NCBI GenBank assembly: GCA_029246105.1
Contig: JAQWOA010000043.1
Location: 1 to 62,158 of the forward strand
Origin: Woeseiaceae bacterium
GTDB taxonomy: Bacteria > Pseudomonadota > Gammaproteobacteria > Steroidobacterales > Woeseiaceae
Length of the DNA: 62,158 bases
Reading direction: 5' to 3'
Numbering within the stretch: the stretch's first letter is position 1; every line of letters begins with the position of its first letter. A model generated the notes under the pieces. The model saw nothing but the letters and a program-made list of their open reading frames with translations, was not told the DNA's origin and ran no database searches. Below, in pieces: positions 18,287 through 33,619 of this stretch. The translations under genes and the position numbers were made by a program.

Positions 18287-19093
18287 TTAAAGCTTCTTAG
18301 TTGTTACGACCGCATCTGCAGGAATGCATTCAAGGGTTTCAATATCAAAATCTGGTGAGATCGAGAGTGGCCCTTTTTCAATAACACCTGTACGAACCCG
18401 TATTGTTGGAATCCCCGCTGCATGACCGGCGGCGATGTCAGTCATGATTTGATCTCCGACCATGAATGTTGATTGTTGGTCTGTTCCAAGTATTGATAAT
18501 GCCATATTGACAAGATCAGGCTTAGGCTTGCCGATGATGGTGGGTGCAATACCAGAAGCTGTTTCAATAGCCTTTAGGATTGAGCCAGCACCAGGTTCGA
18601 ATCCACCGTTTTTAGGCAGCATAGGATCCGGATTAGTGCCAATAAAATGCGCGCCATTCAATAATGCTGTTTGGGCTAATGCTAATTTTTTATGTGTAAA
18701 GCTGCGATCTAGCCCTGCGATAACCGCATCAACATTTTTATCAGCAATATTAAAATTGCAATCCGATATCGCCTGTATCAACGCCGGCTCACCAATCACC
18801 ATAACGCGAGATTTGGGTTTAAGTAATTTATTAAGCTTATTTGCAGCTACTGCACTAGTGGTAATGATGCGCTCAGGGCTGATGGGTATACCCATTACAT
18901 TAAGTTTATTGCTGAATTCTTTTGCTGATTTTGTTGAATTATTTGTGACAAATGCATACGGGAGCCCAATATCATGCCAACGTTGAAATACTCTAATGGC
19001 AGATTCGATTGGCTCATCACCACAATAGGTGACACCATCCAAGTCACTTATAATTGCAGATATTTTAGGCCAGTGTGTCAATCTTTCTCTCAA
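18287..19093 (-). CDS. HAD-superfamily phosphatase, NagD-like (subclass IIA)
   Basis: A 268-residue cytoplasmic phosphatase. The nucleophile motif is DLDGVTY, motif II is VTNNSTKSA, then a C2-type cap (GTNPDPMLP), the lysine in IGKPKPDLV and the acidic motif MVGDQIMTDI. These are the marks of NagD/4-nitrophenylphosphatase enzymes that act on small sugar or nucleotide phosphates. The start is TTG, overlapping the SDR stop (TTGA); an inner TTG twelve bases on is also possible. It is last in the six-gene minus operon from 24586. With a ribokinase two genes upstream, a sugar phosphate is the likely substrate. Confidence 0.85.
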   Translation of the reverse strand: MRERLTHWPKISAIISDLDGVTYCGDEPIESAIRVFQRWHDIGLPYAFVTNNSTKSAKEFSNKLNVMGIPISPERIITTSAVAANKLNKLLKPKSRVMVIGEPALIQAISDCNFNIADKNVDAVIAGLDRSFTHKKLALAQTALLNGAHFIGTNPDPMLPKNGGFEPGAGSILKAIETASGIAPTIIGKPKPDLVNMALSILGTDQQSTFMVGDQIMTDIAAGHAAGIPTIRVRTGVIEKGPLSISPDFDIETLECIPADAVVTTKKL

Positions 19094-19848
19094 TCACTCA
19101 TGACCATGCCGCCATTTACATGTAGGACTTGGCCAGTGATATATGCAGCAGCCTCTGACGCTAGAAATACTGCAGCACCGACAATGTCCTCTGGCTGTCC
19201 AATACGCCCTAGCGGTATACGACCACTATGGCGAGCCTCAGTTTCCTCAACAGGGCGATCATGCAAGGGAGTGTGAATAATGCCTGGGGCAATCGCATTC
19301 ACGGTGATACCTTGTGGTGCCGTCTCGTAAGCGAGAAGTTGCGTCATATCATGCAAGATAGCCTTAGAGTAGCAGTAATCCGCACCGCCGGCTTGATAGT
19401 TTAGAATGGCCCCTCGTGATGAAATTGATGAACCAATATTAATAATGCGACCGCCATTTTCTTTCAATGAATCTTCGTAGATAAGACGTGTTAAATTCAA
19501 TACGGCTTCGGTATTTATTGAAAGTGTATGCTGAATTTTTTTCTTGTCGCCATCAATTAACCGTTCGCTTGATTTGACACCGGCATTGTTAATCAGAATA
19601 TCTATCGGTCCAAAGTGAGCCCGAGCTAGAATTAGCACTTCGTTTATTTTACTTGAATCAGACACATCCAAAGCGACCGACATCACACGATCGTTGTTAG
19701 CCATAGAGTTTGTGACGGGTTCCAGATTTAAATCTGTCGCAACGACGTTAGCAGATGCTTCAACGAATCCTTTTACAAGAGCTAATCCGATACCTCCAGA
19801 GGCGCCGGTAATCAATACTGTCTTTCCAGACAGATCAAGAGTATGCAT
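19090..19848 (-). CDS. Short-chain dehydrogenase/reductase
   Basis: A 252-residue classical SDR, a tetrameric NAD(P)-dependent oxidoreductase. The cofactor motif is TGASGGIG, NNAG is present at residue ~88, the catalytic Ser is in SSISSRG, and Tyr/Lys are in YCYSK. The C-terminus (ITGQVLHVNGGMVMSD) is that of FabG-like and sugar/polyol dehydrogenases. The acid at the end of the first beta strand (ATDLN) suggests preference for NAD(H). AGGAG lies nine bases before the ATG. It overlaps ribokinase by 14 bases and the HAD gene by four. In this locus it is more likely a sugar or sugar-alcohol dehydrogenase than a fatty-acid enzyme. Confidence 0.87.
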   Translation of the reverse strand: MHTLDLSGKTVLITGASGGIGLALVKGFVEASANVVATDLNLEPVTNSMANNDRVMSVALDVSDSSKINEVLILARAHFGPIDILINNAGVKSSERLIDGDKKKIQHTLSINTEAVLNLTRLIYEDSLKENGGRIINIGSSISSRGAILNYQAGGADYCYSKAILHDMTQLLAYETAPQGITVNAIAPGIIHTPLHDRPVEETEARHSGRIPLGRIGQPEDIVGAAVFLASEAAAYITGQVLHVNGGMVMSD

Positions 19849-20770
19849 TTTTTAGAGCTCCTTTTTCGGCCATAAAATGCTTGACCTCCTGTTCAGTGGG
19901 CATTGATGTTTGTGCACCTTTGCGCGTTACGCAAAGACTTGCTGTAGCAGATGCAAAACACAGTGAATCTTCTATCTTCATTCCACGTGCAACTGCTACA
20001 GCAAGGGCGCCGTTAAAAGCATCGCCGGCCGCGGTAGTGTCTATAGCGTCCACCGGAAAGGCTTTTTGATGTATCCGTTGTTTAGCATCTAAATAAACAA
20101 CACCATTGGCTCCAAGTGTGATGGCGACAGCAGCGATGCCATTATTATGCAGCCGCATGGCGGCATCAAAGGCTTGATCAATCGATGAGACATGCAGTCC
20201 GGACAATTCTTCAGCTTCAGTTTCATTCGGAGTAATGATGTCGATAAGCTTGCAGTCTGCTGCAGTTAATTGAGCACGTACTGGAGCAGGGTTAAAAATT
20301 AGGGTGCGATTTTTTTTATTCTCGAAAGCTGCTCGGCAAGTATCGAGGGGCAGTCCCATTTCGACCACCATAACGGCATCTTCTGGTACATCTTTTAGTG
20401 CCATGAGCATATCATCCGGACTAAATTCTTCATTTGCGCCAACATCTATGCCCATCATGTTAGTGCCATCATTAGCGACAAGAATCAGTGCTTTTCCTGA
20501 CCTTGAACCAGGTTTTTTACAAATTTTACTGGTTTGCACACCAAATTCCGCTAGGTTGCGCATTAGGCTGTCTGCCGCGCTATCTTCGCCTAACATGGTT
20601 GCAAAATACGGCATGGCTCCTAGGCGCGCAGCAGCAACTGCTTGATTGGCACCTTTACCGCCGGCAAATTCCTCAGTAGTACCAATTAAGCTTTGGCCAA
20701 CGGATGGAAGGGCCGTTGAATAAAAATTAATGTCAAGATTTGTTGTACCAATGAAGATTAATGGCCGCAT
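19835..20770 (-). CDS. rbsK: Ribokinase-like PfkB sugar kinase
   Basis: A 311-residue kinase with strong ribokinase features: the N-terminal signature FAGGKGANQAVAAARLGA, FATMLGEDS, ITPNETEAEELSG and the ATP-site DTTAAGDAFNGALAVA. Ribokinase phosphorylates D-ribose at O5. The symbol is given because the resemblance is close, but the true substrate may be another pentose or deoxyribose. It sits between the flavoprotein and the SDR in the minus operon, opposite a ribose-type ABC importer that could deliver its substrate. A second PfkB kinase (30958-31905) lies in the divergent operon. Confidence 0.85.
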   Translation of the reverse strand: MRPLIFIGTTNLDINFYSTALPSVGQSLIGTTEEFAGGKGANQAVAAARLGAMPYFATMLGEDSAADSLMRNLAEFGVQTSKICKKPGSRSGKALILVANDGTNMMGIDVGANEEFSPDDMLMALKDVPEDAVMVVEMGLPLDTCRAAFENKKNRTLIFNPAPVRAQLTAADCKLIDIITPNETEAEELSGLHVSSIDQAFDAAMRLHNNGIAAVAITLGANGVVYLDAKQRIHQKAFPVDAIDTTAAGDAFNGALAVAVARGMKIEDSLCFASATASLCVTRKGAQTSMPTEQEVKHFMAEKGALKNAYS

Positions 20771-20853: not shown

Positions 20854-22548
20854 TTAGGTAGCATCTGCTCTAGCTTTGGCATCTTCAATGGCCAAATAAG
20901 CAGAAACAATTCCTGGCCCGATGGTGATCCCAGCACCCGGATAAATTCCTGCCATTATCGAGGTCGCGTCGTTTCCGCACGCATAAAGGCCTGTGATTGC
21001 ATTATCGTCTTTTTTTAGGACTCTTGCCCTTTCGTCAGTCTTGAGTCCTGCCGCTGTACCTAAAGTTCCTGGGACGATTCGAAGTGCGATAAAAGGGCCA
21101 TTTTTAATCTCGCCTAGATTCGGATTCTTTAGGCCCAAGCTTTCGTCTCCTAAAGCTAGATTGAAGGCAGATTCACCGCGACCAAAATCTGGATCTTTTC
21201 CAGAATGAGCATTTTGATTGTGTTGGCTCACTGTGGCTATAAGAGATTCTGAATTAATATCGATTTCTTTTGCTAGTGCTTCAAGGGTATTGCCACGTTG
21301 GATATAGCCGCGTCGGATATAGCTGCTGAGACTAGGAGTCCATGGCCAAGGTAGAATATCTCCCATGCCTCGTTTTTTTACGAACGCTTCTTCGCAAATA
21401 AAGAAGAAGCGTTCATCATCAGGGTAGCCATTATTAAAAAGGCCGATACAAATATCATGATATGAGTTTGATTCATTCACAAACCTTTTGCCTTTCGGGT
21501 CTACTGCTATAACGCCAGGGCGACCTCGATCAAGCCATCCGTAGGGCACGATGGCGGTTGACCCATCTTTATTTTTTAAGCGTGATACAGGCGTCCAGAA
21601 ACCAGGACTTGCGACCTTTAGATCAAGCATTCCACCTGCTTTGCCTGCAGCTTGAATGCCATTGCCTTGGTTTTCGGTGGCACATAATGTGACATCATGT
21701 TGATGTTTGGCTCCCATATTGGCTCGCAATTTAGGATTGGCGGCGAATCCTCCGGTAGCCAGAATTACCCCATGCCGAGCTTGGACGCGAATTTCGGAAC
21801 CTTCATAGGAAACGATAGCACCGGTCGCCCTATCGTTTTCAACAATCAGCTCTTTCATCGGACAATCAGTTGCTAATTCTATATTTAACTTGCGAACACT
21901 TTTTAAGGCTGCGGCTAGAAACGCATTGCCACCGCTTAATTCAGTGCCACGCGAAAATTTTAAACGATCTATCATATAACGACTCACGCGGCGCAATACA
22001 TGCAATAGAGACGTGGCAGACTTTATTGGATTTAAGAAATGCTTGATTTCACTTGATGTAATCATCATGCCGCCTAGCACTACTCTGATTGGATCTCCAA
22101 TAAGATCAAAGTCAGCTCCTAAATGACGCCCATCGAATGGTGCTGGACTTAAAGCCCGCCCTTTATCAACACCGCCAGCACGATTTGAGTGATAGTCGGG
22201 AGCTCCAGCTAAAACGAACTTTATCTCTGAGCATTTTTCGATTTCCTGAACAGCTTTTGGGCCATATTTGAGGTAAGTATCGATTTTCTTCTCATTATAA
22301 TAACTTCCCAATTCACCACGTAAATATATACGTGCTTGATCGAGTGAATCATCAATTCCAGCCTTAATGGCATGATCAGAGCATGGCACCCAAATCATTG
22401 CATTCGATAATGCAGTCGTGCCACCTATCTTGGAGGCTTTTTCACATAACATCACTGAATATCCAGCAGATGATGCATAGAGCGCTGCACAGATACCTGC
22501 AGCGCCGCTACCAATGATTAAAAAATCAGTAGTTTTTTCATTACTCAC
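20854..22548 (-). CDS. FAD-dependent oxidoreductase, KstD/fumarate-reductase-like
   Basis: A 564-residue flavoprotein. The N-terminal dinucleotide motif is IIGSGAAGICAALYA, followed by CEKASKIGGTTALSNAMIW. Near the C-terminus, GLYACGNDATSIMAGIYPGAG resembles the signature of the 3-ketosteroid-delta1-dehydrogenase group within the fumarate reductase flavoprotein superfamily. RFVNESNSYHD is another group motif. The locus holds no other steroid genes, so I infer dehydrogenation of a sugar-derived or other small keto compound. GTG start with AGGA ten bases upstream. It lies six bases after the TIM-barrel gene and 83 bases before ribokinase. Confidence 0.82.
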   Translation of the reverse strand: MSNEKTTDFLIIGSGAAGICAALYASSAGYSVMLCEKASKIGGTTALSNAMIWVPCSDHAIKAGIDDSLDQARIYLRGELGSYYNEKKIDTYLKYGPKAVQEIEKCSEIKFVLAGAPDYHSNRAGGVDKGRALSPAPFDGRHLGADFDLIGDPIRVVLGGMMITSSEIKHFLNPIKSATSLLHVLRRVSRYMIDRLKFSRGTELSGGNAFLAAALKSVRKLNIELATDCPMKELIVENDRATGAIVSYEGSEIRVQARHGVILATGGFAANPKLRANMGAKHQHDVTLCATENQGNGIQAAGKAGGMLDLKVASPGFWTPVSRLKNKDGSTAIVPYGWLDRGRPGVIAVDPKGKRFVNESNSYHDICIGLFNNGYPDDERFFFICEEAFVKKRGMGDILPWPWTPSLSSYIRRGYIQRGNTLEALAKEIDINSESLIATVSQHNQNAHSGKDPDFGRGESAFNLALGDESLGLKNPNLGEIKNGPFIALRIVPGTLGTAAGLKTDERARVLKKDDNAITGLYACGNDATSIMAGIYPGAGITIGPGIVSAYLAIEDAKARADAT

Positions 22549-22553
22549 TAGGT

Positions 22554-23381
22554 TTATTTCCTTGAGAATGGAATGGCCTTGAAGTCTTCAGCTATTGTTT
22601 TCACCGCATGCTCTATCGGAATGCGCTCGATGGACGATGCACCGACGAAACCCACACATTGGGTGTTTTCATAAACTCGACGGGTATCTTCTGGCGATGC
22701 TATTTTACCGCCATGGCAGAGAAAGGTTGGTGTATGGCCGGCTACTATAACAGCGTCTACCATTTCTGAGATTTTGCGTATTTCTTCATCTATTTTAGTT
22801 TCAGTTTCGTGCCCCGAAAGCCCACCGCTCGTGGCGCCGACATGAGGCACTATACAATCGACACCCTTTTCAGCTACATCTATTGCATCTTGGACTGTTG
22901 CCACATAAGCCATAGAAAAAATGTCACGTGCGGTAGCTTTTTCGATCAGCTCAACTTCGCGTTTCCAGCCAAGATCTACTTTGCCTCTCCGCTTACGCCA
23001 GCGTTCACCCATAGTAGAAATAGTAGGATAATTGATAATGCCTGAGTACCCAGCTGCTTGGAATTCATCGAGTAGCTGATCTAAATCCATGCGCGTTGGA
23101 TCCCAAGCCTCGATCCCACCAACTAAGGGTGTGTCTGATACTACATTTCGAATCTCAGCTGCCATGTCGATCGTGATAGTATTGGAGTCTCCGATACGAC
23201 TCGTTGGCAGACCCATAAGCCTTGACTTGCCAGTGCTGTATACAATCAGCAAATCTGCGCCGCCAAGAGCAGCGCATTTAGCAATCAAACCACAGCTAGT
23301 GCCTGCTGCGAGAATAGGACGACTGGCTTTTGTTTCTTCAGCCAGGCGATTCAATATATTTTGTCGGGAAAAATTCTTCAT
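22554..23381 (-). CDS. TIM-barrel protein of the phosphoenolpyruvate hydrolase-like family
   Basis: A 275-residue protein matching the TIM-barrel 'signal transduction/PEP hydrolase-like' family. It opens with the segment ILAAGTSCGLIAKCAALGGA. The central WRKRRGKVDLGWKREVELI and PHVGATSGGLSG are highly characteristic, and FVGASSIERIP closes the barrel. The family fold is that of PEP-utilising isomerases and lyases, but I know no firmly assigned reaction. It corresponds to the C-terminal domain of the plant Tm-1 protein. Its start overlaps the Tm-1-like gene by four bases, so the two are coupled and probably work together. Confidence 0.85.
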   Translation of the reverse strand: MKNFSRQNILNRLAEETKASRPILAAGTSCGLIAKCAALGGADLLIVYSTGKSRLMGLPTSRIGDSNTITIDMAAEIRNVVSDTPLVGGIEAWDPTRMDLDQLLDEFQAAGYSGIINYPTISTMGERWRKRRGKVDLGWKREVELIEKATARDIFSMAYVATVQDAIDVAEKGVDCIVPHVGATSGGLSGHETETKIDEEIRKISEMVDAVIVAGHTPTFLCHGGKIASPEDTRRVYENTQCVGFVGASSIERIPIEHAVKTIAEDFKAIPFSRK

Positions 23382-24586
23382 GAAGACCTATTAAGTTGTG
23401 CAACCATCCAGTCGGCGCAGAGCATTCCGAATTCGGGATCATTGATGTGTAAATCATTCTCTAAGACAGGAATATCTGCTCTGAGCGTCTGCTTCATTGT
23501 ATCGCGCCATGACATATTAGCCACCGGGTCATGGAAGGGTTTACCTGGGCGATCGTAATCCGATACGCCTTGCGCCGGCCAGAATACTGCAACTGGCCCT
23601 ATAGATTGGTTTATCCTGACCGCCGTTTGGTAAGCAATCTTTGCGGTTTCATCAGAATTTGTGCGCACGAGCGTTGTCATTGATGTGTGTCGATATGTGG
23701 TACGGTCCAAAAGATGATTTGGCATCGATTCTGGTGGTCCAAAATTAACCATATCAACTGCTCCTGGTGCAATGATTTGAGGAATACCAGTCCTAGCTGC
23801 TGCTTTTAAGCGATCTTCCCCTGCGCTGGCCGTTCCATCCAATAGCAGGTCTGCCATTTCTGTTGTTGTTAGGTCGACTACGCCATCAAATTCGCCTTTG
23901 GCGATAAGTGATTCCATAGTGCGTCCACCTGCACCATTTGCTGGAAATACGATGACAGTCACATCAGAATCTTCAAGACGAGACATCACTGATTGAACTG
24001 CTGGTGTAGTGACACCAAAAGCTGTAACAGCAACTGTTTTTCCAGGTCGAATTGCCTCTTGCACCCATTCCAATCCATGTAGCATATTTGCTGCATTGAT
24101 CAACACGCTGCGCGTGAACTTGTTTATACCCATTAGATCCACAATTGTTGGCAGAAGTATGGTGTCAGAAGTGGTAGCAATCTCCGCCAGCAGTGCTGGC
24201 CGAGCGCTTGTAACAAGTACCTTTGGAAATCCATAGGGAAGGTCGCATGTTATTTGATGAAATATGCCAGCACCCTTGCCACCACCTACTCCTGCGATCG
24301 CAGAGATATTTCCCGTTTTGAATAACTCATTAACTATGGCAATTGCACCAGATGCCATTGCATTGAGTGCTTCTGCTGGTCCATCAAAATCAATGGGAAT
24401 TTTAGCTTTATTTGTGATGGATTCGCGTGTTATGTCCCCAGGAAACTTTGGAGAACCAGCAGTCCCAATATCCATGACAATCACTGAGCGGCCATATGAA
24501 ACAAGTTGCTTCTTGAGAAATGCGATTTCATCTCCCTTGGAATCAAGGGTAGCGACAAGTAAAATATTACCTTTGGGTGTGCTCAT
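23378..24586 (-). CDS. Tm-1-like ATP-binding domain protein (UPF0261)
   Basis: A 402-residue protein of the UPF0261/Tm-1-like family. Diagnostic segments are ILLVATLDSKGDE at the start, VMDIGTAGSP, AGVGGGKGAGIF, VDLMGINKFTRSVL and FPANGAGGRTMESLI. In tomato Tm-1 this domain binds ATP and is fused to a TIM barrel; in bacteria the biochemical role is not established to my knowledge. Here the two domains are separate, adjacent, overlapping genes in the same order as the plant fusion. It is first in the six-gene minus operon, divergent from the ABC transporter. Two short inverted repeats lie in its upstream region. Confidence 0.87.
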   Translation of the reverse strand: MSTPKGNILLVATLDSKGDEIAFLKKQLVSYGRSVIVMDIGTAGSPKFPGDITRESITNKAKIPIDFDGPAEALNAMASGAIAIVNELFKTGNISAIAGVGGGKGAGIFHQITCDLPYGFPKVLVTSARPALLAEIATTSDTILLPTIVDLMGINKFTRSVLINAANMLHGLEWVQEAIRPGKTVAVTAFGVTTPAVQSVMSRLEDSDVTVIVFPANGAGGRTMESLIAKGEFDGVVDLTTTEMADLLLDGTASAGEDRLKAAARTGIPQIIAPGAVDMVNFGPPESMPNHLLDRTTYRHTSMTTLVRTNSDETAKIAYQTAVRINQSIGPVAVFWPAQGVSDYDRPGKPFHDPVANMSWRDTMKQTLRADIPVLENDLHINDPEFGMLCADWMVAQLNRSS

Positions 24587-24997: not shown

Positions 24998-25936
24998 ATG
25001 AATTTTCGACAAACGTTAAAATCAGCAGTGTTTGCAATTACTGCTGCATTTATGAGTACCACGGTGTTTGCGGAAGAGCTAAAAATTGGACTTGTTCAGA
25101 TTAATCAACAGGCCCTCTTTTTCAATCAAATGAATGAAGGTGCAAATACGGCAGCAGAGGCTGCAGGGGTCGAATTATTTATTTTTAATGCAAACAATGA
25201 CCCAGCAAAGCAGGCAGATGCTATCGAAACCTACATTGCTGAAGGTGTGGATGGTCTAGTGGTAGTGGCGATTGATGTAAATGGCGTCATGCCAAGTGTG
25301 ATAGATGCTGCCGCTGCAGGTATCCCAGTTGTTGCTGTTGATGCAATCTTGCCGGAGGGCCCACAGAAGGCTCAAGTCGGTGTTGATAACGCACTTGCAG
25401 GACAATTGTTAGCGACTCATCTCATCGACCATCTTGATGGCAGTGGTTTTGAGGGCGTGGAGCTTGGCATTGTTGGTGCACTTAATTCGTTTATTCAGAA
25501 TGTCCGTCAGAAAGGCTTTGAAGATGGGATTTCAGATGATTCACGTATTAAGATTGTAGGCATAGTTGATGGCCGTAATTCGCAGGACAATGCTCTAAGG
25601 TCTGCTGAGAATTTGATAACAGCAAATCCTGGAATTGATGTGATTTATGCAACTGGTGAGCCAGCTCTTGTAGGCGCAATTGCTGCCGTTGAAAGTCAAG
25701 GCCGGACTGACGACATTGAAGTAATCGGTTGGGATTTGACTGGCGAAGTTATTGCTGGAATCGATGCTGGGTATGTAACCGCTGTAATTCAGCAGGATCC
25801 GACAGGCATGGGTAATGCTGCAATAAATTCAGTTCTTAAATCCATCGCAGGTAAGGTGATTGAATATGATGTTGCCGTACCAGTCACTATTGTTACAAAG
25901 TATAATGTTGATCCTTATCGTGAGATTTTTAAGTAA
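24998..25936 (+). CDS. Ribose-type ABC transporter, periplasmic sugar-binding protein
   Basis: A 312-residue exported binding protein of the RbsB/peripla_BP_4 group. The signal peptide is residues 1-25, with cleavage expected after VFA before EELKIGLV. Family landmarks are IFNANNDPAKQADAIE, GVDGLVVVAID, AAAGIPVVAVDA and VGVDNALAGQLLA. It would bind a pyranose or pentose in the periplasm and pass it to the ATPase and permease downstream. A strong AGGAG precedes the ATG. A LacI-type palindrome just upstream suggests induction by the sugar. The stop overlaps the ATPase start by one base (TAATG). Confidence 0.9.
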   Translation: MNFRQTLKSAVFAITAAFMSTTVFAEELKIGLVQINQQALFFNQMNEGANTAAEAAGVELFIFNANNDPAKQADAIETYIAEGVDGLVVVAIDVNGVMPSVIDAAAAGIPVVAVDAILPEGPQKAQVGVDNALAGQLLATHLIDHLDGSGFEGVELGIVGALNSFIQNVRQKGFEDGISDDSRIKIVGIVDGRNSQDNALRSAENLITANPGIDVIYATGEPALVGAIAAVESQGRTDDIEVIGWDLTGEVIAGIDAGYVTAVIQQDPTGMGNAAINSVLKSIAGKVIEYDVAVPVTIVTKYNVDPYREIFK

Positions 25937-26751
25937 TGGTTTCGCAAGACTTGTTGAGTAAGGAGGCGGACCAAGCCACCTTCAATCAATCAAAACCGCG
26001 TATTTCTGTGCGAGGAATAAAAAAACGCTTTGGTGCGGTTGAGGCTTTGCGCGGCGTCGATCTGGATATCTATCCAGGCGAGTGCTTGGGTCTCGTGGGC
26101 GACAACGCAGCAGGTAAATCAACTTTTACCAAAATGTTATCTGGAGTGTATGTGCCGGATGAAGGTGAGATGAAAATTGATGGCCATGAGGTTCAGTTCG
26201 AGACGCCGAATGATGCCCGAAAGCATCGGATTGAGATGGTCTATCAAGACTTAAGCCTTTGCGACACGATTGACATTCCAGGTAATCTTTTTCTGGGACG
26301 AGAGCTACGCAAGTCACCTGAATTTTTTGGATTCTTGGATAAGCGCAAGATGCGAAAGAGCACTCAGAAGATGCTGGATAAATTGCAAATCCGTATTCCA
26401 AATATAAATTCTAAGGTTGCGATGCTATCGGGGGGTCAGCGTCAAGCCATCGCTATCGCACGCGCTGCAGCATTTAATCCTGATTTATTAATTATGGATG
26501 AGCCAACATCGGCACTTGCAGTTGCTGAAGTGGACGCCGTGTTGGACCTGATAAACCGTTTAAAGGAAACGGGAGTGTCGATTATTCTGATAACACATCG
26601 ATTGCAGGACTTATTTCGCGTTTGTGACCGCATTGCCGTTATGTATGAGGGCACAAAAGTGGCTGAAAGAAACATACATGATACTGATCTTGAAGATTTA
26701 GTTAATCTGATTGTTGGAGGGCATGCACATGCAGCCACAAAACAAAAATAA
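25936..26751 (+). CDS. Sugar ABC transporter ATP-binding protein, single domain
   Basis: A 271-residue ATPase with Walker A GDNAAGKST, the Q-loop region, the signature LSGGQRQAIAIARA and Walker B LLIMDEPTSAL. Ribose-type systems usually carry a duplicated ATPase of about 500 residues. This one has a single domain, as in FrcA-like fructose/ribose systems, and should act as a homodimer. The start is fixed by the TAATG junction with the binding-protein gene, and the 3' end overlaps the permease start by 23 bases. Confidence 0.9.
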   Translation: MVSQDLLSKEADQATFNQSKPRISVRGIKKRFGAVEALRGVDLDIYPGECLGLVGDNAAGKSTFTKMLSGVYVPDEGEMKIDGHEVQFETPNDARKHRIEMVYQDLSLCDTIDIPGNLFLGRELRKSPEFFGFLDKRKMRKSTQKMLDKLQIRIPNINSKVAMLSGGQRQAIAIARAAAFNPDLLIMDEPTSALAVAEVDAVLDLINRLKETGVSIILITHRLQDLFRVCDRIAVMYEGTKVAERNIHDTDLEDLVNLIVGGHAHAATKQK

Positions 26752-27715
26752 GAGCAGTGCGTTAACAGAATTTTTAGCGCAAAATGCGCAGGTATCTAGC
26801 ATCGCTGTTTTTCTGTTGGTTTGTGTTATTGGCTTTTCAGCTTCGACAGACGCCTTTCTATCTAGTCCTAATCTTTTAAATCTTCTTCGCCAATCTGCTC
26901 CTTTAATGATTGTAGCGGTGGCGATGACTTTTGTAATTACCACCGCTGGAATTGATTTATCAGTTGGTTCAACTCTTGCACTTGCCAATGCTCTGGTAGC
27001 TATTCTTATTGCGCAGGCAACACCTTGGCCTTTGGCAGCGCTAATTGTACTGAGCGTGGGTGCATTGATTGGATTGATGCAGGGTTGGTTTATTGCGTAT
27101 GAAAAAATTCCACCATTTATTGTCACGCTTGCAGGATTATCGATTTTCCGCGGTATCGCACTTTTGATGACCGAAGGCTTTTCTATTCCAATTGATCGAA
27201 GCTCAGGTTTTTTAGCCCTTGGCCGTGGCTGGTTTATGGGTGTGCCAATCCCTGCAATTTTGGCAATAATTGTTGTAGTGGTCGGTCTTATTACGCTCTC
27301 ACAGACAACGTTTGGGCGACACGTGATTGGCATTGGTGCGGATACAGAGTCGGCACGTCGTGCGGGTATCTCGACAAAGCGCGTAATTATTATGGTTTAT
27401 GTTCTAGCCGGAGTAGCCGCAGCTTTTGCTGGTTTAATTTTTGCCGCACGCCTTGCAAGTGGTAGCTCAAACGCTGGTGTTGCATTCGAACTGGAGGTTA
27501 TCGCGGCAGTTGTTCTGGGGGGAACTTCTTTAATGGGCGGTCGTGGATCCGTAGCTGGTACGGTACTCGGAGCGCTGACTATTGTTGTGATTGGTAACGG
27601 ACTGATCCTATTACATGTATCTCCATTCTTCACGCAAATTGTTACTGGGAGTATCATCTTGATTGCGATCTGGTTAAATACAAGAGTTTTTACTCGCATA
27701 GTTACAACTCATTGA
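26729..27715 (+). CDS. Sugar ABC transporter permease (RbsC/FrcB-like)
   Basis: A 328-residue membrane protein with about ten hydrophobic segments. The conserved TTAGIDLSVGSTLALANAL and the coupling-loop region RRAGISTKRVIIMVY are as in RbsC. FELEVIAAVVLGGTSLMGGRG is the other classical motif of the family. I chose ATG 26729 because GGAGG at 26716-26720 is eight bases before it; an ATG at 26723 and upstream TTG codons are possible. It completes a three-part importer with the preceding genes and overlaps the ATPase gene. Confidence 0.9.
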   Translation: MQPQNKNKSSALTEFLAQNAQVSSIAVFLLVCVIGFSASTDAFLSSPNLLNLLRQSAPLMIVAVAMTFVITTAGIDLSVGSTLALANALVAILIAQATPWPLAALIVLSVGALIGLMQGWFIAYEKIPPFIVTLAGLSIFRGIALLMTEGFSIPIDRSSGFLALGRGWFMGVPIPAILAIIVVVVGLITLSQTTFGRHVIGIGADTESARRAGISTKRVIIMVYVLAGVAAAFAGLIFAARLASGSSNAGVAFELEVIAAVVLGGTSLMGGRGSVAGTVLGALTIVVIGNGLILLHVSPFFTQIVTGSIILIAIWLNTRVFTRIVTTH

Positions 27716-27723
27716 GGAGTAAG

Positions 27724-28767
27724 ATGATGTCGGAATCAACCGCTATGACAGTACTAGGTCCGATCTCTACTTCGGAGCTTGGAACCACGCTGATGCATGA
27801 GCATGTCTTCAATGACTGTTCTTGTGCTTGGCGTGGTCATGAACCCGGCTATCATTCAGAAATTATGCATAAAAAAGTTGATGCTTCTATGCAGCAGCAA
27901 CTTATTGAAGATCCGTTTGGATGTTTAGATAATTGCGGTAATGATGATGAAGCGTTGGCTATTCAAGAGCTCGCACCGGTCGCTGTCCATGGTGGACAGA
28001 CATTGGTGGATCCAACAAATCGTGGTGTTGGGCGTGATCCCGAGGCCCTCATGCGAGTGGCGAAAGCCACTGGGCTTAATATCATAATGGGCTCGGGCTA
28101 TTATTTACACAGCTCACATCCAGCTGAATTGAGTGCTCTATCGGTCGATGATATTGCATCGGAGATAGAGAGCGAATATGAAGTTGGTGTCGATCAATCT
28201 GGTGCTCGAATCGGTTTAATTGGCGAGATTGGTGTTAGCACCGAATTTACTGATTCTGAGATGAAGGTTTTAAAGGCTTCAGCTAAGGCCGCTGTCCGAA
28301 TAGGTCTCCCGCTAATGGTGCATCTGCCAGCCTGGGATAGGCATGGACATAAGGTGTTAGATGTAGCTGAGTCTTGTGAGCTGGATCCTGCGCGTATCAT
28401 CCTTTGTCACATGAATCCTTCTCATGATGATCAGCCATATCAACAAGCTTTGGCTGCGCGGGGCGCCTTTATTGAATATGACATGATTGGCATGGACTAT
28501 ATATTTGAGCAGGGTACTGTTACTTGCCCGACAGATCATGAAAGTGCGATAGGCCTCGCAAATTTGGCTGAAGCTGGCTATTTAGATCAATTACTTTTGT
28601 CGCAGGATGTTTTTCTAAAGTCCATGCTCAGCGCCTATGGAGGCAAAGGTTATGCCCATCTTTTTTCGGAATTCTTGCCTCGTCTATTGGGCCATGGTTT
28701 TGGTCAGAAAGAGATCGATCATATGATGATATCCAATACAGCTACTTCCCTTGAAATTCAAAAATAA
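27724..28767 (+). CDS. Phosphotriesterase-like amidohydrolase (PHP/lactonase family)
   Basis: A 347-residue TIM-barrel metal-dependent hydrolase. The HxH metal motif is LMHEHVFND. The bridging residue is a Glu in LIGEIGVS, where true phosphotriesterases have a carboxylated Lys; Glu here is what I recall for the PHP subgroup. Further ligands lie in PLMVHLPAW, ILCHMNP and the Asp of LSQDVF. Members of this subgroup hydrolyse sugar lactones or lactone phosphates, which would suit a sugar-oxidation pathway. GAGGAG precedes the ATG. An in-frame TTG at 27712 lies in the permease stop and is rejected. It sits in the ABC operon. Confidence 0.82.
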   Translation: MMSESTAMTVLGPISTSELGTTLMHEHVFNDCSCAWRGHEPGYHSEIMHKKVDASMQQQLIEDPFGCLDNCGNDDEALAIQELAPVAVHGGQTLVDPTNRGVGRDPEALMRVAKATGLNIIMGSGYYLHSSHPAELSALSVDDIASEIESEYEVGVDQSGARIGLIGEIGVSTEFTDSEMKVLKASAKAAVRIGLPLMVHLPAWDRHGHKVLDVAESCELDPARIILCHMNPSHDDQPYQQALAARGAFIEYDMIGMDYIFEQGTVTCPTDHESAIGLANLAEAGYLDQLLLSQDVFLKSMLSAYGGKGYAHLFSEFLPRLLGHGFGQKEIDHMMISNTATSLEIQK

Positions 28768-28779
28768 AGAATATTACCT

Positions 28780-29949
28780 ATGACCAACGTTGATGCCTCC
28801 TGTGCCTTTCTCGCTCAAAACTTAGAGCGCTTTTCTTCAATTCGTCAAGAATTTCACATGCAACCTGAGCTCGCATATGAAGAGAAGGAAACCTCTACTC
28901 GCATAGCAAATTTTCTTACAGATATTGGATGGACGGTCTCAAGGGGTATTGGCGGCACTGGAGTTGTAGCGACTTTAGCTGGAGGTACAGGTTCAACCAT
29001 AGGACTTCGTTCTGATATGGACGCTCTTCCAATTATCGAAAATACTCATGTCGCTCATTCAAGTCGTAATGCCGGAAAAATGCATGCTTGTGGCCATGAT
29101 GGACATATCACAATTTTACTAGCTTTAGCAGAGTTACTAGTTCAGGAGAAAGAAAGGCCAGGAGATGTAAACCTATATTTTCAACCGGCTGAGGAAACTG
29201 GAAGTGGAGCACAATCGATGCTGGAAGATGGAGTACTCAAAAGGTTCCCATGTGATCAGATGTTAGGCCTACATAATTGGCCAACTCTTCCATTAGGAGT
29301 TGTTTCGGTGCGCCAAGGTGTGCAGATGAGCGCTTTTCAATCGCTTGAATTGGATTTTTTATGTGGTGGTGGTCATGCAGCAATGCCAGAAAATTGCCCA
29401 GATATTTTTTCTGCTATGTCTGATTTTCTTAGTCAATCATATTCTAAAATAAGAAATTTAAAGCATGAAAATGCACCGGTTAGTTTTTCCTTTACGCGCG
29501 TCAAAGGTGGCAGCGCCATAAATATAATTCCAACCACAATTAGTTTAGAGGCGAGCTTTAGATATAGCTCCAATAGTCAGTTTTTGATGGTTTGCGATAT
29601 TGTTGATGAAATCCGAAAGCAGATTATTAAAAATTATGGAGTTGATATTGATTTGAGGTGGATAGAACGATTTGCTCCACTTGTTAATGATGAGGTTGTT
29701 ACCTCGAGCCTGGTTAAAAGCCTGTCGGATATCCCCAGTGTGAAATATCAAGAAACAGCTGCTCCTTCAATGGTTGCAGATGATTTCGGGTATTTTGCCG
29801 AGCATGTACCAAGTTGTTATTTTTGGGTTGGCACTGGACAGAAAAATACAAATCTTCATGCGGATAATTATGATTTTAACGATAATGTTTTGAAGATTGC
29901 TCCAGCTATCTTATATAACTATGTTATGCGTTCTGGGCCTCGGGACTAA
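28780..29949 (+). CDS. M20 family amidohydrolase (hippurate hydrolase-like)
   Basis: A 389-residue binuclear metal-dependent hydrolase of the M20D group (hippurate hydrolase, N-acyl amino acid amidohydrolase, IAA-amino acid hydrolase). RSDMDALP and MHACGHDGH give the first ligands, QPAEETGSGA the catalytic and bridging Glu, and LGLHNWP is a subgroup motif. A dimerisation domain lies in the middle (about residues 185-290), and the last ligand is in NLHADNYDF. It would cleave an acyl-amide bond in the cytoplasm, perhaps N-deacylation of an imported amino sugar or conjugate. It follows the phosphotriesterase-like gene by 12 bases. Confidence 0.88.
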   Translation: MTNVDASCAFLAQNLERFSSIRQEFHMQPELAYEEKETSTRIANFLTDIGWTVSRGIGGTGVVATLAGGTGSTIGLRSDMDALPIIENTHVAHSSRNAGKMHACGHDGHITILLALAELLVQEKERPGDVNLYFQPAEETGSGAQSMLEDGVLKRFPCDQMLGLHNWPTLPLGVVSVRQGVQMSAFQSLELDFLCGGGHAAMPENCPDIFSAMSDFLSQSYSKIRNLKHENAPVSFSFTRVKGGSAINIIPTTISLEASFRYSSNSQFLMVCDIVDEIRKQIIKNYGVDIDLRWIERFAPLVNDEVVTSSLVKSLSDIPSVKYQETAAPSMVADDFGYFAEHVPSCYFWVGTGQKNTNLHADNYDFNDNVLKIAPAILYNYVMRSGPRD

Positions 29950-30127
29950 ATGAAAGAAGCATTAACTTAAGTTTTATTTGCGTAAGTTGACTGGAATTTT
30001 TTTTTAAAAAACGATTACACATTAATTATTTATAATAGATCCCGACTAACTTGCTGTCGGAAAATTATTGCTGGTTTCTTGCACGCTACCTAAAAATCGA
30101 AACTCTTAATATGAGGATAATCTAGAG

Positions 30128-30961
30128 ATGTCAGTTGGACAATTACGAGACAATGCAATTACATCGCTGTTCAAGCAGCCTAAAATTGTCATCGGTGTCA
30201 TACACTCAAAGGCACTTCCAGGCGCTCCAAGATACAGCGGCGATCCGGTTTCAAAGATTTATGATTATGCGTTAGCTGAGGCGCAACGTTATGCAGAAGC
30301 GGGCGTAGATGGACTGATTGTTGAAAATCATGGCGATATTCCGTTTCTTAAGCCGGATGTCATTGGACCAGAAACTGCTGCCTGTATGGCTGTTATGACT
30401 GAGCGCGTCCGAGTTAAAACGGGCCTGCAAGTCGGTGTAAACGTTTTAGCAAATGGGGCCCTTCAGGCGCTGTCCATTGCACAAGCAGCAGGCGCTTCAT
30501 TTATACGTGTTAATCAGTGGTCGAATGCTTATGTCGCCAATGAGGGATTAGTAGAAGGACCAGCTGCTATGGCGTTGCGCTATCGTAGAAATATTGGCGC
30601 CGAAGCAGTTCGAATTTTTACTGATGTACATGTTAAGCATGGTGCGCATGCAATTACTGCTGATCGCAGCATTGAAGAGTTGGCTCGTGATAACGAGTTC
30701 TTCGACGCTGATGTGGCAATTGCGACAGGTCAGCGAACTGGTAATGCCGCAACCCAAGAAGAGCTTGCCACTATAGCTGAAGCAACAAGTTTGCCTGTGT
30801 TGGTTGGTAGTGGTGTTAGTGAGAGTAACGTGGAAAGAATAATGTCGATTGCAAGTGGTGTAATAGTCGCAAGCTCTCTTAAGAAAGATGGTGTTTGGTG
30901 GAACTCCGTTGATCCGGTGCGTGCACGAAGCTTCATGCGGGCGGTAGAGGATATGCGGTGA
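30128..30961 (+). CDS. BtpA/SgcQ family TIM-barrel protein
   Basis: A 277-residue protein of the BtpA/SgcQ family. Characteristic parts are VIGVIHSKALPGAPRY, DGLIVENHGDIPF, VGVNVLANGALQALSIAQAAGASFIRVNQW and the C-terminal PVLVGSGVSESNV phosphate-binding-like loop. BtpA was named for a role in photosystem I biogenesis in cyanobacteria. In heterotrophs its relatives lie in sugar operons (SgcQ), and the barrel suggests a sugar-phosphate epimerase, aldolase or lyase; the reaction is not known to me. GAGG precedes the ATG. Upstream 29950-30127 holds a TATAAT at 30031. The stop overlaps the next kinase (GTGA). Confidence 0.85.
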   Translation: MSVGQLRDNAITSLFKQPKIVIGVIHSKALPGAPRYSGDPVSKIYDYALAEAQRYAEAGVDGLIVENHGDIPFLKPDVIGPETAACMAVMTERVRVKTGLQVGVNVLANGALQALSIAQAAGASFIRVNQWSNAYVANEGLVEGPAAMALRYRRNIGAEAVRIFTDVHVKHGAHAITADRSIEELARDNEFFDADVAIATGQRTGNAATQEELATIAEATSLPVLVGSGVSESNVERIMSIASGVIVASSLKKDGVWWNSVDPVRARSFMRAVEDMR

Positions 30962-31905
30962 CACTAAGAGTCATCGGTAATACAACACGAGATATTTTCT
31001 ATCTAACGCAAAATTTTCCTATGCCTGGTGAGAGCGTTCTTGCATTTGAACGAAAAGAAGATGTTGGAGGGAAGGGTTTTAATCAAGCTGTAGCGGCGGC
31101 TCGTGCTGGAGCTAAAGTCTGCTTTACAACATCTATAGGCAATGATGCGCCAGCCGAGATCTTACGTATGGCGATTAACGCTGAAGAAGGAATGGTAGCT
31201 AATATTTTGACCGCGCCATTTTCTACGGATGAATCAGTCATCATGATCAGCGATGAAAGCGAAAATGCAATAGTTAGCACTGCTGACTGTGCTAGGTGGC
31301 TTGATGTTCAGAGTTTGGCTCCGACCTTAGAATCAGTAATTCAGGGTGATCTGCTTCTAATGCAAGGAAACATGAATCATGAGACGACTGCGAATGCTCT
31401 AAGTCAGGCACGAGCGCGTGGCGCAATCAGTGTCCTGAATATTGCCCCACTTCCACAAGATGCTGCTGCACTGGTAGAAATGGCAGATATTGTCGTCTTA
31501 AATCTGGTCGAAGCTTGCACCATTTTGGGGCATACATGTGTAAAAATTGAGACTAACTCTATTGCTTCCGCTATCAACAGTGGCAAGATGTTGCAGGAGC
31601 AGAGCGGATCAATTATTTTACTAACCTTGGGCTCGAATGGCTGTGTCATCCTCTCTCCTGATGCTGAGCCCATTGAAATTTCGGCTCCTCGAGTCGAGGC
31701 GGTGGATACAACTGGCGCAGGAGACACCTTTACAGGATGGTTTTGTGCAGGGCGAATGAGGGGGCTGTCACTCGAAGATGCTGTCAAGGAGGCTGTAGAT
31801 GCTGCCGCTTTGATGGTAACTCGCCTTGGCACAGGAAATGCTCTGCCTTCACGAACAGAGTATGTAAAATTTTTAGAGGAACAATGTCAGAATGAACTTG
31901 GTTGA
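30958..31905 (+). CDS. PfkB family carbohydrate kinase
   Basis: A 315-residue kinase with the ribokinase-family motifs EDVGGKGFNQAVAAARAGA at the substrate site and DTTGAGDTFTGWFCAG at the ATP/anion hole. It starts with GTG in a GTGA overlap with the BtpA-family gene, so the two proteins are made together. The substrate is unknown; the pairing suggests that it phosphorylates a sugar which the BtpA-like barrel then converts. It differs from the ribokinase at 19835-20770, so this locus carries two kinases of the superfamily. Confidence 0.87.
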   Translation: MTLRVIGNTTRDIFYLTQNFPMPGESVLAFERKEDVGGKGFNQAVAAARAGAKVCFTTSIGNDAPAEILRMAINAEEGMVANILTAPFSTDESVIMISDESENAIVSTADCARWLDVQSLAPTLESVIQGDLLLMQGNMNHETTANALSQARARGAISVLNIAPLPQDAAALVEMADIVVLNLVEACTILGHTCVKIETNSIASAINSGKMLQEQSGSIILLTLGSNGCVILSPDAEPIEISAPRVEAVDTTGAGDTFTGWFCAGRMRGLSLEDAVKEAVDAAALMVTRLGTGNALPSRTEYVKFLEEQCQNELG

Positions 31906-32058: not shown

Positions 32059-32075
32059 GCACGCAGGCTGCGTGC
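32059..32075. promoter_or_regulatory. GC-rich perfect inverted repeat upstream of the halogenase-like gene
   Basis: GCACGCAG-G-CTGCGTGC is a 17-base perfect inverted repeat in an AT-rich gap, 45 bases before the ATG at 32120. As DNA it could be an operator. As RNA it would form a seven-pair hairpin with a GGC loop. No T-tract follows, so it is not a terminator. The remainder of 31906-32119 shows nothing else convincing. Confidence 0.45.
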
Positions 32076-32119
32076 AATTGCAACACAATTTAAATCATCA
32101 GCTCTCTGGAGAATTATTG

Positions 32120-33619
32120 ATGGAGAAGAAAATTCGCGTAATCGTCGCCGGTGGTGGAACGGCTGGCTGGACGACAGCCCATTGCTTGGCCAAGCGGCTG
32201 GGTAATATGCTCGAAATCATTCTAGTGGAATCTGATCAGATTGGAACCGTTGGTGTGGGTGAGGCGACAATTCCTACCATGCGTAGATTTCATCAGTTTT
32301 TTGGAATTGATGAGCGTGAGTTTATGCGTGAAACCCAGGGAACATTTAAGCTCGGCATTGACTTCGTCAACTGGAGCAGGCCAGGCGAAAGCTATATTCA
32401 CTCTTTTGGTGATATTGGTCAAAGTACATGGATGGCTGAATTTCATCAGTATTGGATGGAGGCTCAGGCAAATGGTTTTGGGGGTAGCTTGGATGACTAT
32501 TGTCTCGAATTGAAGGCGGCCCAGGAAGATAAATTTGCTATAAAAGTTGGCGAGACGTCATTGGCGTATGCTTTTCACATGGATGCAACGGCCTATGCTA
32601 AATGGCTGCGCAAAAAAAGTGAATTACTTGGCGTCCAGCGAGTTGAAGGCAAAATTAATGAAATTACTGTTGATCCAGTGACGGGTAATATTACATCGTT
32701 GGAGTTAGAGCATAACAGACAGGTTGCCGGTGATTTTTTTATTGATTGTAGTGGCTTTAGAGGCTTGTTGCTTGGCGATGCATTGGATGTTGAATTCGAG
32801 GACTGGAGTCATTGGATAGCCTCTGACCGCGCTTGGGCAGTTCAGACGAAAAATATTGAACCGCCTGTTCCTTACACAAGTGCGATTGCACATCCTATCG
32901 GTTGGCAGTGGCATATTCCTCTGCAAACTCGCACTGGTAATGGTCTTGTTTTTAGTAGCCAATTTTGTTCCGAAGATGAAGCTCTTACAACTTTGCTTGG
33001 CAATGTTACTGGTGAAACAACCACTGAGCCTCGTCTCTTAAAATTTAAAACAGGTCGCCGAATAAATCCATGGCACAAAAACTGTGTTGCTATAGGTTTA
33101 GCGAGTGGCTTTATCGAACCTCTTGAATCGACCAGCATACATTTGATTAACACCTCGCTCGTACGCTTGATGAATCTCTTTCCATTTTCAGGTGAAATGG
33201 AGTCGTTAACGGAGCGCTTTAATCGTGAAACCCGTCTTGAATGGGAGGCAGTGCGTGATTTCATTATTCTGCATTACAAGCAGACATTTCGGGATGATAG
33301 TGAATTCTGGAATTATTATCGTACGATGGATATTCCAGACAGCCTTGCTCATCGTCTAGAGATATTTAAAGAAAGCGGTTATGTGTGGCAGGATGAGGTG
33401 AATCTGTTTCGCTCACATTCTTGGGTGCAGGTAATGATTGGGCAGGGTTTAATTCCAGAATACCATCACCACGCTGGCCGCATGCTGCCACCGAATGAAC
33501 TAAAGAGACAACTTGATGGGATGATCACTTCTATTGATCAGAATCTTGCCAAGCTGCCCAGTCATAGTGACTTCATTAAACAGTATTGCCCGGCGGTAGA
33601 GCTGAGTGACAATGAATAA
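32120..33619 (+). CDS. Tryptophan halogenase-like flavoprotein
   Basis: A 499-residue FAD-dependent protein of the tryptophan-7-halogenase family. The FAD motif GGGTAGW is near the N-terminus. The catalytic lysine is in GTFKLGIDF, the WxWxIP motif is WQWHIP, and the second catalytic residue, Glu, is in EPLESTSIHLI. Key residues for hypohalous-acid chemistry are thus present. Many marine TonB-rich bacteria carry such genes next to carbohydrate and TonB loci, with no natural-product cluster and with unknown substrates. I start at ATG 32120 (GGAGA seven bases upstream) and not at the in-frame GTG 32072, which lies inside an inverted repeat. Confidence 0.85.
   Translation: MEKKIRVIVAGGGTAGWTTAHCLAKRLGNMLEIILVESDQIGTVGVGEATIPTMRRFHQFFGIDEREFMRETQGTFKLGIDFVNWSRPGESYIHSFGDIGQSTWMAEFHQYWMEAQANGFGGSLDDYCLELKAAQEDKFAIKVGETSLAYAFHMDATAYAKWLRKKSELLGVQRVEGKINEITVDPVTGNITSLELEHNRQVAGDFFIDCSGFRGLLLGDALDVEFEDWSHWIASDRAWAVQTKNIEPPVPYTSAIAHPIGWQWHIPLQTRTGNGLVFSSQFCSEDEALTTLLGNVTGETTTEPRLLKFKTGRRINPWHKNCVAIGLASGFIEPLESTSIHLINTSLVRLMNLFPFSGEMESLTERFNRETRLEWEAVRDFIILHYKQTFRDDSEFWNYYRTMDIPDSLAHRLEIFKESGYVWQDEVNLFRSHSWVQVMIGQGLIPEYHHHAGRMLPPNELKRQLDGMITSIDQNLAKLPSHSDFIKQYCPAVELSDNE

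Follow-up and report, generated by a model that had tools for sequence, protein, structure and literature searches.

The window analysed here, a stretch of 62,158 nucleotides of contig JAQWOA010000043.1 of a Woeseiaceae bacterium, carries on its reverse strand two overlapping genes whose products correspond to the two domains of the tomato protein Tm-1: a UPF0261 protein related to the N-terminal half and a PF09370 TIM (triosephosphate isomerase)-barrel protein related to the C-terminal half. The source genome, a 1.35 Mb assembly in 58 contigs that is 88% complete, has a single UPF0261 gene. Both UPF0261 models of Pfam match the same protein above their cut-off of 27 bits each (N-terminal, 118.1 bits; C-terminal, 251.1 bits), and the barrel protein matches PEP_hydrolase (PF09370) with 275.6 bits against a cut-off of 33.8. 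The best solved relatives of the UPF0261 protein are the tomato Tm-1 entries, and its predicted structure (predicted local distance difference test score, pLDDT, of 92.8) has the Tm-1 N-terminal fold, aligning to 3wrw_D over 384 residues with a Z score of 44.9 and a root-mean-square deviation (rmsd) of 4.0. For the barrel the sole solved relative listed is 2p10, to which the model (pLDDT 88.4, with residues 186-195 poor) aligns over 250 residues at Z 34.9, rmsd 2.1 and 33% identity. The ATGA at 23381-23378 is common to the ATG start of the barrel gene and the TGA stop of the UPF0261 gene, and the window encodes no single polypeptide with both Tm-1 domains, only two separate open reading frames (ORFs).

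The pair heads a six-gene operon in which it is followed by FAD_binding_2, PfkB, short-chain dehydrogenase (SDR) and HAD-IIA genes (Table 1). The gap between the barrel and FAD_binding_2 genes is 5 bases and that between the FAD_binding_2 and PfkB genes 83, while the PfkB and SDR genes overlap by 14 bases and the SDR and HAD-IIA genes by 4. An earlier sequence-only reading had described two overlapping genes in Tm-1 order, with a flavoprotein like 3-ketosteroid delta-1-dehydrogenase (KstD), a ribokinase, an SDR and a phosphatase behind them; the ORFs and Pfam matches, and for the pair also the shared ATGA, confirm this description. When scored against the TIGR02152 model, the PfkB kinase reached 276.2 bits, slightly below the cut-off of 299.65. 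Rfam and tRNA scans of the window gave no matches.

Table 1. Genes and features of the operon headed by the UPF0261-barrel pair and of the divergent module beside it.
Feature	Position	Strand	Length, family or basis
UPF0261 / Tm-1 N-terminal-like protein, proposed ATP-dependent small-molecule kinase	23378..24586	-	402 aa; PF06792 + PF23189
PF09370 TIM-barrel protein, like the Tm-1 C-terminal half; proposed substrate a phosphorylated intermediate	22554..23381	-	275 aa
ATGA stop/start overlap of the UPF0261 and barrel genes	23378..23381	-	sequence
KstD-like FAD-dependent oxidoreductase, partner of the pair's clade	20854..22548	-	564 aa; PF00890; PRK06134/PRK12843 relatives
PfkB-family kinase, ribokinase-like	19835..20770	-	PF00294
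Short-chain dehydrogenase (SDR)	19090..19848	-	PF13561
HAD-IIA phosphatase, NagD group (the group HpeD was compared with)	18287..19093	-	PF13344; TIGR01460 above cut-off
Divergent CUT2-type sugar ABC (ATP-binding cassette) importer (RbsB-like binding protein, ATPase, permease)	24998..27715	+	PF13407, PF02653
PTE-family amidohydrolase, M20 amidohydrolase, BtpA/SgcQ barrel, second PfkB kinase	27712..31905	+	PF02126, PF01546, PF03437, PF00294

The two families are inherited together. Among 60 genomes (that of the window, 36 more from its genus and 23 from its order), UPF0261 is present in four, PF09370 is present in the same four, and neither occurs in the other 56, so the association is not one of chance; where the sequence-only reading had considered unrelated distributions of the two proteins, we found the opposite. 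A sample of 321 genomes spread evenly over the class contained UPF0261 above cut-off in 10, PF09370 in six and both in five (hypergeometric 5e-8, with relatedness ignored). These counts leave out one sub-threshold match per family (G165, G087) and take in a PF09370 fragment from G151, the only genome of the sample with a barrel but no UPF0261. Where both were present, the genes were adjacent in four of the five genomes; in G260 they lay on opposite strands with ~6 kb between them. The linkage is one-sided, since the other five UPF0261-bearing genomes of the class sample have no barrel; their UPF0261 proteins belong to other clades than the window's. Much of this is already known: Yang et al. 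(2016; PMC5028733) state that prokaryotes and fungi as a rule encode UPF0261 and the barrel domain in separate genes and streptophytes in a fused one, that 491 of 504 barrel-bearing bacterial genomes have UPF0261 too, and that the two co-evolve in bacteria (r 0.77), and they suggest an interaction; in PMC8963296 the STRING score for COG5441-COG5564 is given as 0.988.

Gene order was compared at the 80 loci, out of 573, that were most similar to the window protein, a set biased by that choice. UPF0261 and barrel genes were adjacent at 46 of them, with the barrel immediately downstream at 42 (including L120, in which the barrel frame is broken) and upstream at four. At six of the remaining loci the barrel lay elsewhere in the fetched stretch and at 28 outside it; in all 28 cases a barrel is encoded elsewhere in the genome, and nine of these 28 stretches meet a contig end within 1.2 kb, where adjacency cannot be judged. 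An ATGA or GTGA overlap in frame with the barrel was found in eight of the 80 relatives, and there was no natural bacterial UPF0261-barrel fusion among the ORFs of 102 sequences scanned (the window and L025-L125). On two haloarchaeal plasmids (L041 and L155) the barrel gene precedes UPF0261, with a cupin gene between them in L041. In viral contigs, 28 pattern matches yielded no confirmed relative by the UPF0261 profile.

The sequence-only reading had presented the pair as a Rosetta-stone case for a physical complex. The Tm-1 order and the functional linkage both stand, as matters already in print (PMC5028733; PMC8963296), any contact between the two proteins being conjecture. A stronger version, which we regard as unlikely, would make the complex obligate and the UPF0261 protein an ATP-binding regulator or scaffold of the barrel enzyme and itself no kinase. 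The plant fusion and the bacterial co-evolution reported in PMC5028733 are in its favour, as are the four-base overlap in the window, its counterparts among the relatives and the prevailing gene order (42 of 46 adjacent pairs), but the genes were not seen adjacent at 34 of the 80 loci, even if nine of these lie near contig ends, and half of the UPF0261-bearing genomes of the class sample manage without a barrel.

The window protein belongs to a distinct lineage of the family. In a tree of 48 UPF0261 proteins it fell in an 11-row clade of Woeseiaceae and Rhizobiales (support 100/100, stem 1.27), and the KstD-like flavoprotein gene adjoins the pair in all 11 rows and at no other locus in the neighbourhood screen. 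Within the 60 genomes an 89% flavoprotein orthologue is found in the same four that have the pair, a fifth genome (G045) giving only 33-34% matches, and among 72,556 plasmid records the clade barrel gene (at least 60% identity) occurs in 20, many of them near copies of each other. The flavoprotein (57-62%) is found in the same 20 records, the next best record reaching 43%, and one of the 20 is pBPHY02 of the betaproteobacterium Paraburkholderia phymatum.

We mapped 16 distinct loci with the trio of UPF0261, barrel and flavoprotein genes, the window included (two further stretches were not counted again: L046, labelled Gammaproteobacteria, which repeats L027, and L047, labelled Woeseiaceae, which repeats L026). 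PfkB, SDR and HAD genes are also present at nine (the window, L025, L026, L027, L039, L040, L050, L051 and L163; the PfkB kinase of L040 is annotated in two pieces), and the other seven are from Bradyrhizobium, with further genes possibly lying beyond the fetched stretches of L058 and L166, which stop at the cassette's usual regulator. Six of the 16 have a CUT1 importer (L026, L039, L040, L050, L051 and L163), which is to say every complete cassette apart from those of the window, G004 and G011, the cassettes of these last three having none. The six-gene cassette was not seen in the literature listings searched (open-licence papers only), and the clade of the pair with its conserved catabolic cassette and flavoprotein is apparently new.

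Some Bradyrhizobium members carry a further gene. A pyruvate kinase gene (at least 76% identity) is present in all 16 Bradyrhizobium plasmid records with the clade barrel, many of which are near copies, and by coordinates or annotation it lies next to the flavoprotein gene in the 11 of them that were opened; among the Bradyrhizobium loci it directly follows that gene in L038, L039, L164, L165 and L166. It is absent or a remnant in the fetched stretches of L048 (where 130 residues are left), L049 and L058, also from Bradyrhizobium, and of L040, L050, L051, L163 and the Woeseiaceae, and is therefore at best a lineage-specific addition. A separate clade of barrel-free UPF0261 proteins (L033, L034, L035, L036 and L044; support 100/100) has relatives of aldehyde dehydrogenase and class III aminotransferase at every one of these loci, and at some of them genes for an IclR regulator or a TTT transporter (names from the L044 annotation).

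What the UPF0261 protein may do is suggested by a second group of relatives. The hpe operon of Rhodococcus, as set out in PMC9618137, comprises a kinase (HpeHI), a carboxylase (HpeCBA) and a phosphatase (HpeD) that was compared to NagD, and HpeHI is a two-component dikinase according to PMC12167813. In PMC13101465, which cites Hall et al. 2025, the first step of a very similar pathway of Novosphingobium aromaticivorans is assigned to MarK, a single-component kinase. PDB entry 9mpy is the UPF0261 protein Saro_1862 of the same species with bound acetovanillone, and we infer that MarK is Saro_1862. The model of the window protein aligns to 9mpy over 388 residues with Z 35.7 and rmsd 7.2. Close kin of 9mpy were found in Sphingobium yanoikuyae (L146, E 9e-173) and in the gammaproteobacterium G178 (L032, E 8e-139), and we opened five loci with a UPF0261 protein more than 50% identical to that of L146, leaving out matches H63 and H65: those of S. 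yanoikuyae and Sphingomonas bisphenolicum, which are nearly identical, and those of Novosphingobium humi, Pseudomonas putida YC-AE1 and G178. All five have the order UPF0261, biotin carrier, biotin carboxylase, carboxyltransferase and HAD phosphatase. As this is the hpe/acv layout of hydroxyphenylethanone operons given in PMC9618137, with UPF0261 replacing HpeHI/AcvAB, the UPF0261 protein occupies the place of the kinase. No PPDK_N kinase gene was found on the S. yanoikuyae plasmid, and the next two plasmid matches opened (41% and 38% identical) show a PF09370 barrel instead. The HAD-IIA protein of the window is 26% identical over 219 residues to the HAD protein of a MarK-type operon.

There are 33 positions at which the four MarK-type rows (L146, L032, L151 and L152, with 9mpy itself not among them) are invariant and the 35 pair-type rows show conservation of at least 95%, and the window protein keeps the conserved residue at every one of these. 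They include D15, K17, E20, K122, D141, D150, N155 and T193, as well as D238, E243, R259, D278, T305, R308, S342 and N382, and such complete retention makes a kinase role a fair reading. By analogy with MarK and from its place in the operon, then, the first gene of the pair probably encodes a small-molecule kinase, and UPF0261 proteins in general may be kinases whose phosphorylated substrate goes on to a partner enzyme, which is a biotin carboxylase in the MarK-type operons and a PF09370 barrel here. If MarK is a UPF0261 protein, its single-component action, as given in PMC13101465, also tells against the scaffold role considered above. The function of the pair had been called not settled in the sequence-only reading; for the family this is partly outdated if 9mpy is MarK, and its function is probably more settled than was held, the kinase activity of the window pair itself being put forward by analogy.

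For the barrel, the structural evidence points towards a phosphorylated ligand. After 2p10 its model matches indole-3-glycerol-phosphate synthase 3tsm (Z 20.7, rmsd 2.8, 208 aligned), 4ml9 (Z 20.0, rmsd 3.0, 225 aligned), and then tryptophan synthase alpha chains and ketopantoate hydroxymethyltransferase 1o66 (Z 19.0), mostly barrels with phosphate ligands. The family has two invariant motifs, HGG where strand 7 ends and GASS at strand 8, the latter with a short helix after it; several such barrels bind a phosphate at these two strands. Near some pairs PF09370 forms the N-terminal part of sigma-54/Fis activators (L039:6969-8744, L043:7084-8865 and L031:2779-4497), and this hints at a ligand from the pathway being bound by the barrel. 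We prefer to see the barrel as an enzyme that would act on a phosphorylated intermediate, as its predicted fold indicates.

The names given to the barrel family suggest another division of labour, in which UPF0261 would be a ring- or chain-cleaving or isomerising enzyme and the barrel a hydrolase of a phosphonate or enol phosphate. Besides the name of PF09370 and that of 2p10, labelled a putative phosphonopyruvate hydrolase, this would suit the close match to the carboxyvinyl-carboxyphosphonate phosphorylmutase 4iqd (Z 18.7), and the pyruvate kinase that follows the flavoprotein in several Bradyrhizobium loci makes an enol phosphate product conceivable. We nevertheless think it improbable: the family names rest on fold, our literature searches found no experimental report of phosphoenolpyruvate (PEP) or phosphonopyruvate hydrolase activity for PF09370, and the MarK analogy favours a kinase.

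Taken together, we favour the view, to which we give a probability of roughly 0.52, that the pair represents the two Tm-1 domains in a free-standing bacterial form and works as a two-step catabolic unit, a kinase followed by the barrel. Oxidation would come first, with the SDR and the KstD-like flavoprotein taking an imported polyhydroxylated ring or chain through a ketone to an enone; the UPF0261 protein would use ATP to phosphorylate a small ketone, enol or phenol; the barrel would take this phosphorylated intermediate and break or rearrange it; and the HAD-IIA phosphatase and PfkB kinase might handle the products afterwards. Both the class of substrate and the order of steps are conjectural.

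Several observations weigh against this proposal. The window protein is only ~29% identical to 9mpy, and the identity of MarK with Saro_1862 is our own deduction. Four changes at otherwise conserved positions (A129 to R, N301 to T, T127 to S and G71 to A) are present in all eight clade rows, so that the substrate of the window protein probably differs and its activity might as well. The G178 genome encodes four PPDK_N proteins elsewhere, one of which, at 416 aa, is a possible separate HpeI-like kinase, and a Thermomicrobium roseum plasmid has, behind an adjacent UPF0261-barrel pair, genes with the annotations PEP/pyruvate-binding and PEP-utilizing enzyme, which counts against a kinase role because a PEP-type kinase is what UPF0261 supposedly replaces. 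No part of a biotin carboxylase was seen by Pfam among the six operon genes and 10 other window proteins (the rest of the genome was not searched), and the cassette already holds a PfkB kinase. On the side of the barrel, the phosphate site is a prediction from fold and motif positions, and the PEP-mutase-type barrel 4iqd is nearly as close as the phosphate-ligand barrels. The UPF0261 proteins that lack a barrel in five of 10 genomes belong here as well.

A more specific version, which we offer as a long shot, would have the cassette carry out ATP-primed C-C cleavage: a polyhydroxylated, cyclitol-like ring from plants or algae would be converted to an enone by the SDR and flavoprotein and then by UPF0261 to an enol phosphate, and cleavage by the barrel would release PEP or a comparable enol phosphate from which, in Bradyrhizobium, the adjacent pyruvate kinase would recover ATP. 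Were this so, plant Tm-1 would be a bifunctional small-molecule kinase and lyase later recruited to virus resistance.

The divergent importer had been put forward in the sequence-only reading as metabolic context for the pair, and it has turned out to be a weak guide to the substrate, because it is part of a separable module. With the PTE, M20, BtpA and PfkB genes up to 31905 it makes up one catabolic module, and the importer, PTE, BtpA and ribokinase genes occur without the pair on a Rhizobium leguminosarum plasmid (L171, of which a 17 kb stretch was covered), in a variant that adds glutamine-amidotransferase and TenA genes and lacks M20. It is doubtful, then, that the pair and the CUT2 importer form one regulon serving a sugar or sugar-acid pathway. 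In the window, G004 and G011 the two operons do share the intergenic region from which they diverge; a search for CUT1 binding proteins at E 1e-20 found none in G000, G004 and G011 (assemblies 88-90% complete); and the PTE gene is in the same four of the 60 genomes as the pair, which leaves room for a link within the genus. Those four related genomes, however, stand for few events, the cassette of G008 has its own CUT1 importer, with the PTE gene on a different contig, and the complete cassettes of alpha- and betaproteobacteria carry CUT1 importers. As for the compound, cyclitol is only a guess from the importer type, the SDR and flavoprotein, and the legume hosts.

Beside these sugar catabolism genes the window encodes a flavoprotein of the tryptophan-halogenase family (32072-33619, + strand), an odd setting for a halogenase, which has relatives of 92-93% identity in G011 and G004 and of 79% in G008; it is followed by a ThuA domain fused with a 3-keto-disaccharide hydrolase domain (33658-35205, + strand). 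The closest solved relative of the PTE-family amidohydrolase is 3k2g.

Compared with known systems, the KstD-like flavoprotein is of the same FAD_binding_2 family as the 3-ketosteroid delta-1-dehydrogenases (PDB 7p18, E 6.8e-75) but scores far under the steroid equivalog cut-offs, and the curated NCBIfam thresholds rule out a steroid role (NF009478, 414.9 against 789 bits; NF005882, 383.5 against 788 bits). With 2p10 (Mll9387, putative phosphonopyruvate hydrolase) the window barrel shares its fold, the activity of 2p10 being itself only putative, and four residues that follow residue 60 in the four other-clade proteins aligned are missing from the window clade. With other COG5441-COG5564 pairs the window pair has the two families in common, mostly in the same Tm-1 order, whereas the window clade is divergent and is set apart by its flavoprotein neighbour and its own substitutions.

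The operons of MarK/Saro_1862 and hpe/acv resemble that of the window in the UPF0261 fold, the shared conserved residues and the presence of a HAD phosphatase, and differ from it in the partner, a biotin-dependent carboxylase there and a PF09370 barrel with an SDR and a KstD-like flavoprotein here. The cassette offers a compact test case because it is also found in culturable legume symbionts, on P. phymatum pBPHY02 and on Bradyrhizobium plasmids. With plant Tm-1 and Tm-1L, the tomato protein of resistance to tomato mosaic virus (ToMV), the likeness extends to both domains, their order and the fold of the N-terminal half, although the plant protein is one polypeptide and the window has two genes. 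In the published Tm-1 complex ATP reportedly bridges Tm-1 and the viral helicase; the antiviral role, the inhibition of tobamovirus replication, is that of the plant protein and is not implied for the bacterial ones. PMC5028733 suggests that the native job of Tm-1 goes beyond virus resistance, and if UPF0261 proteins are kinases feeding different partners, that job would become a concrete enzyme question.

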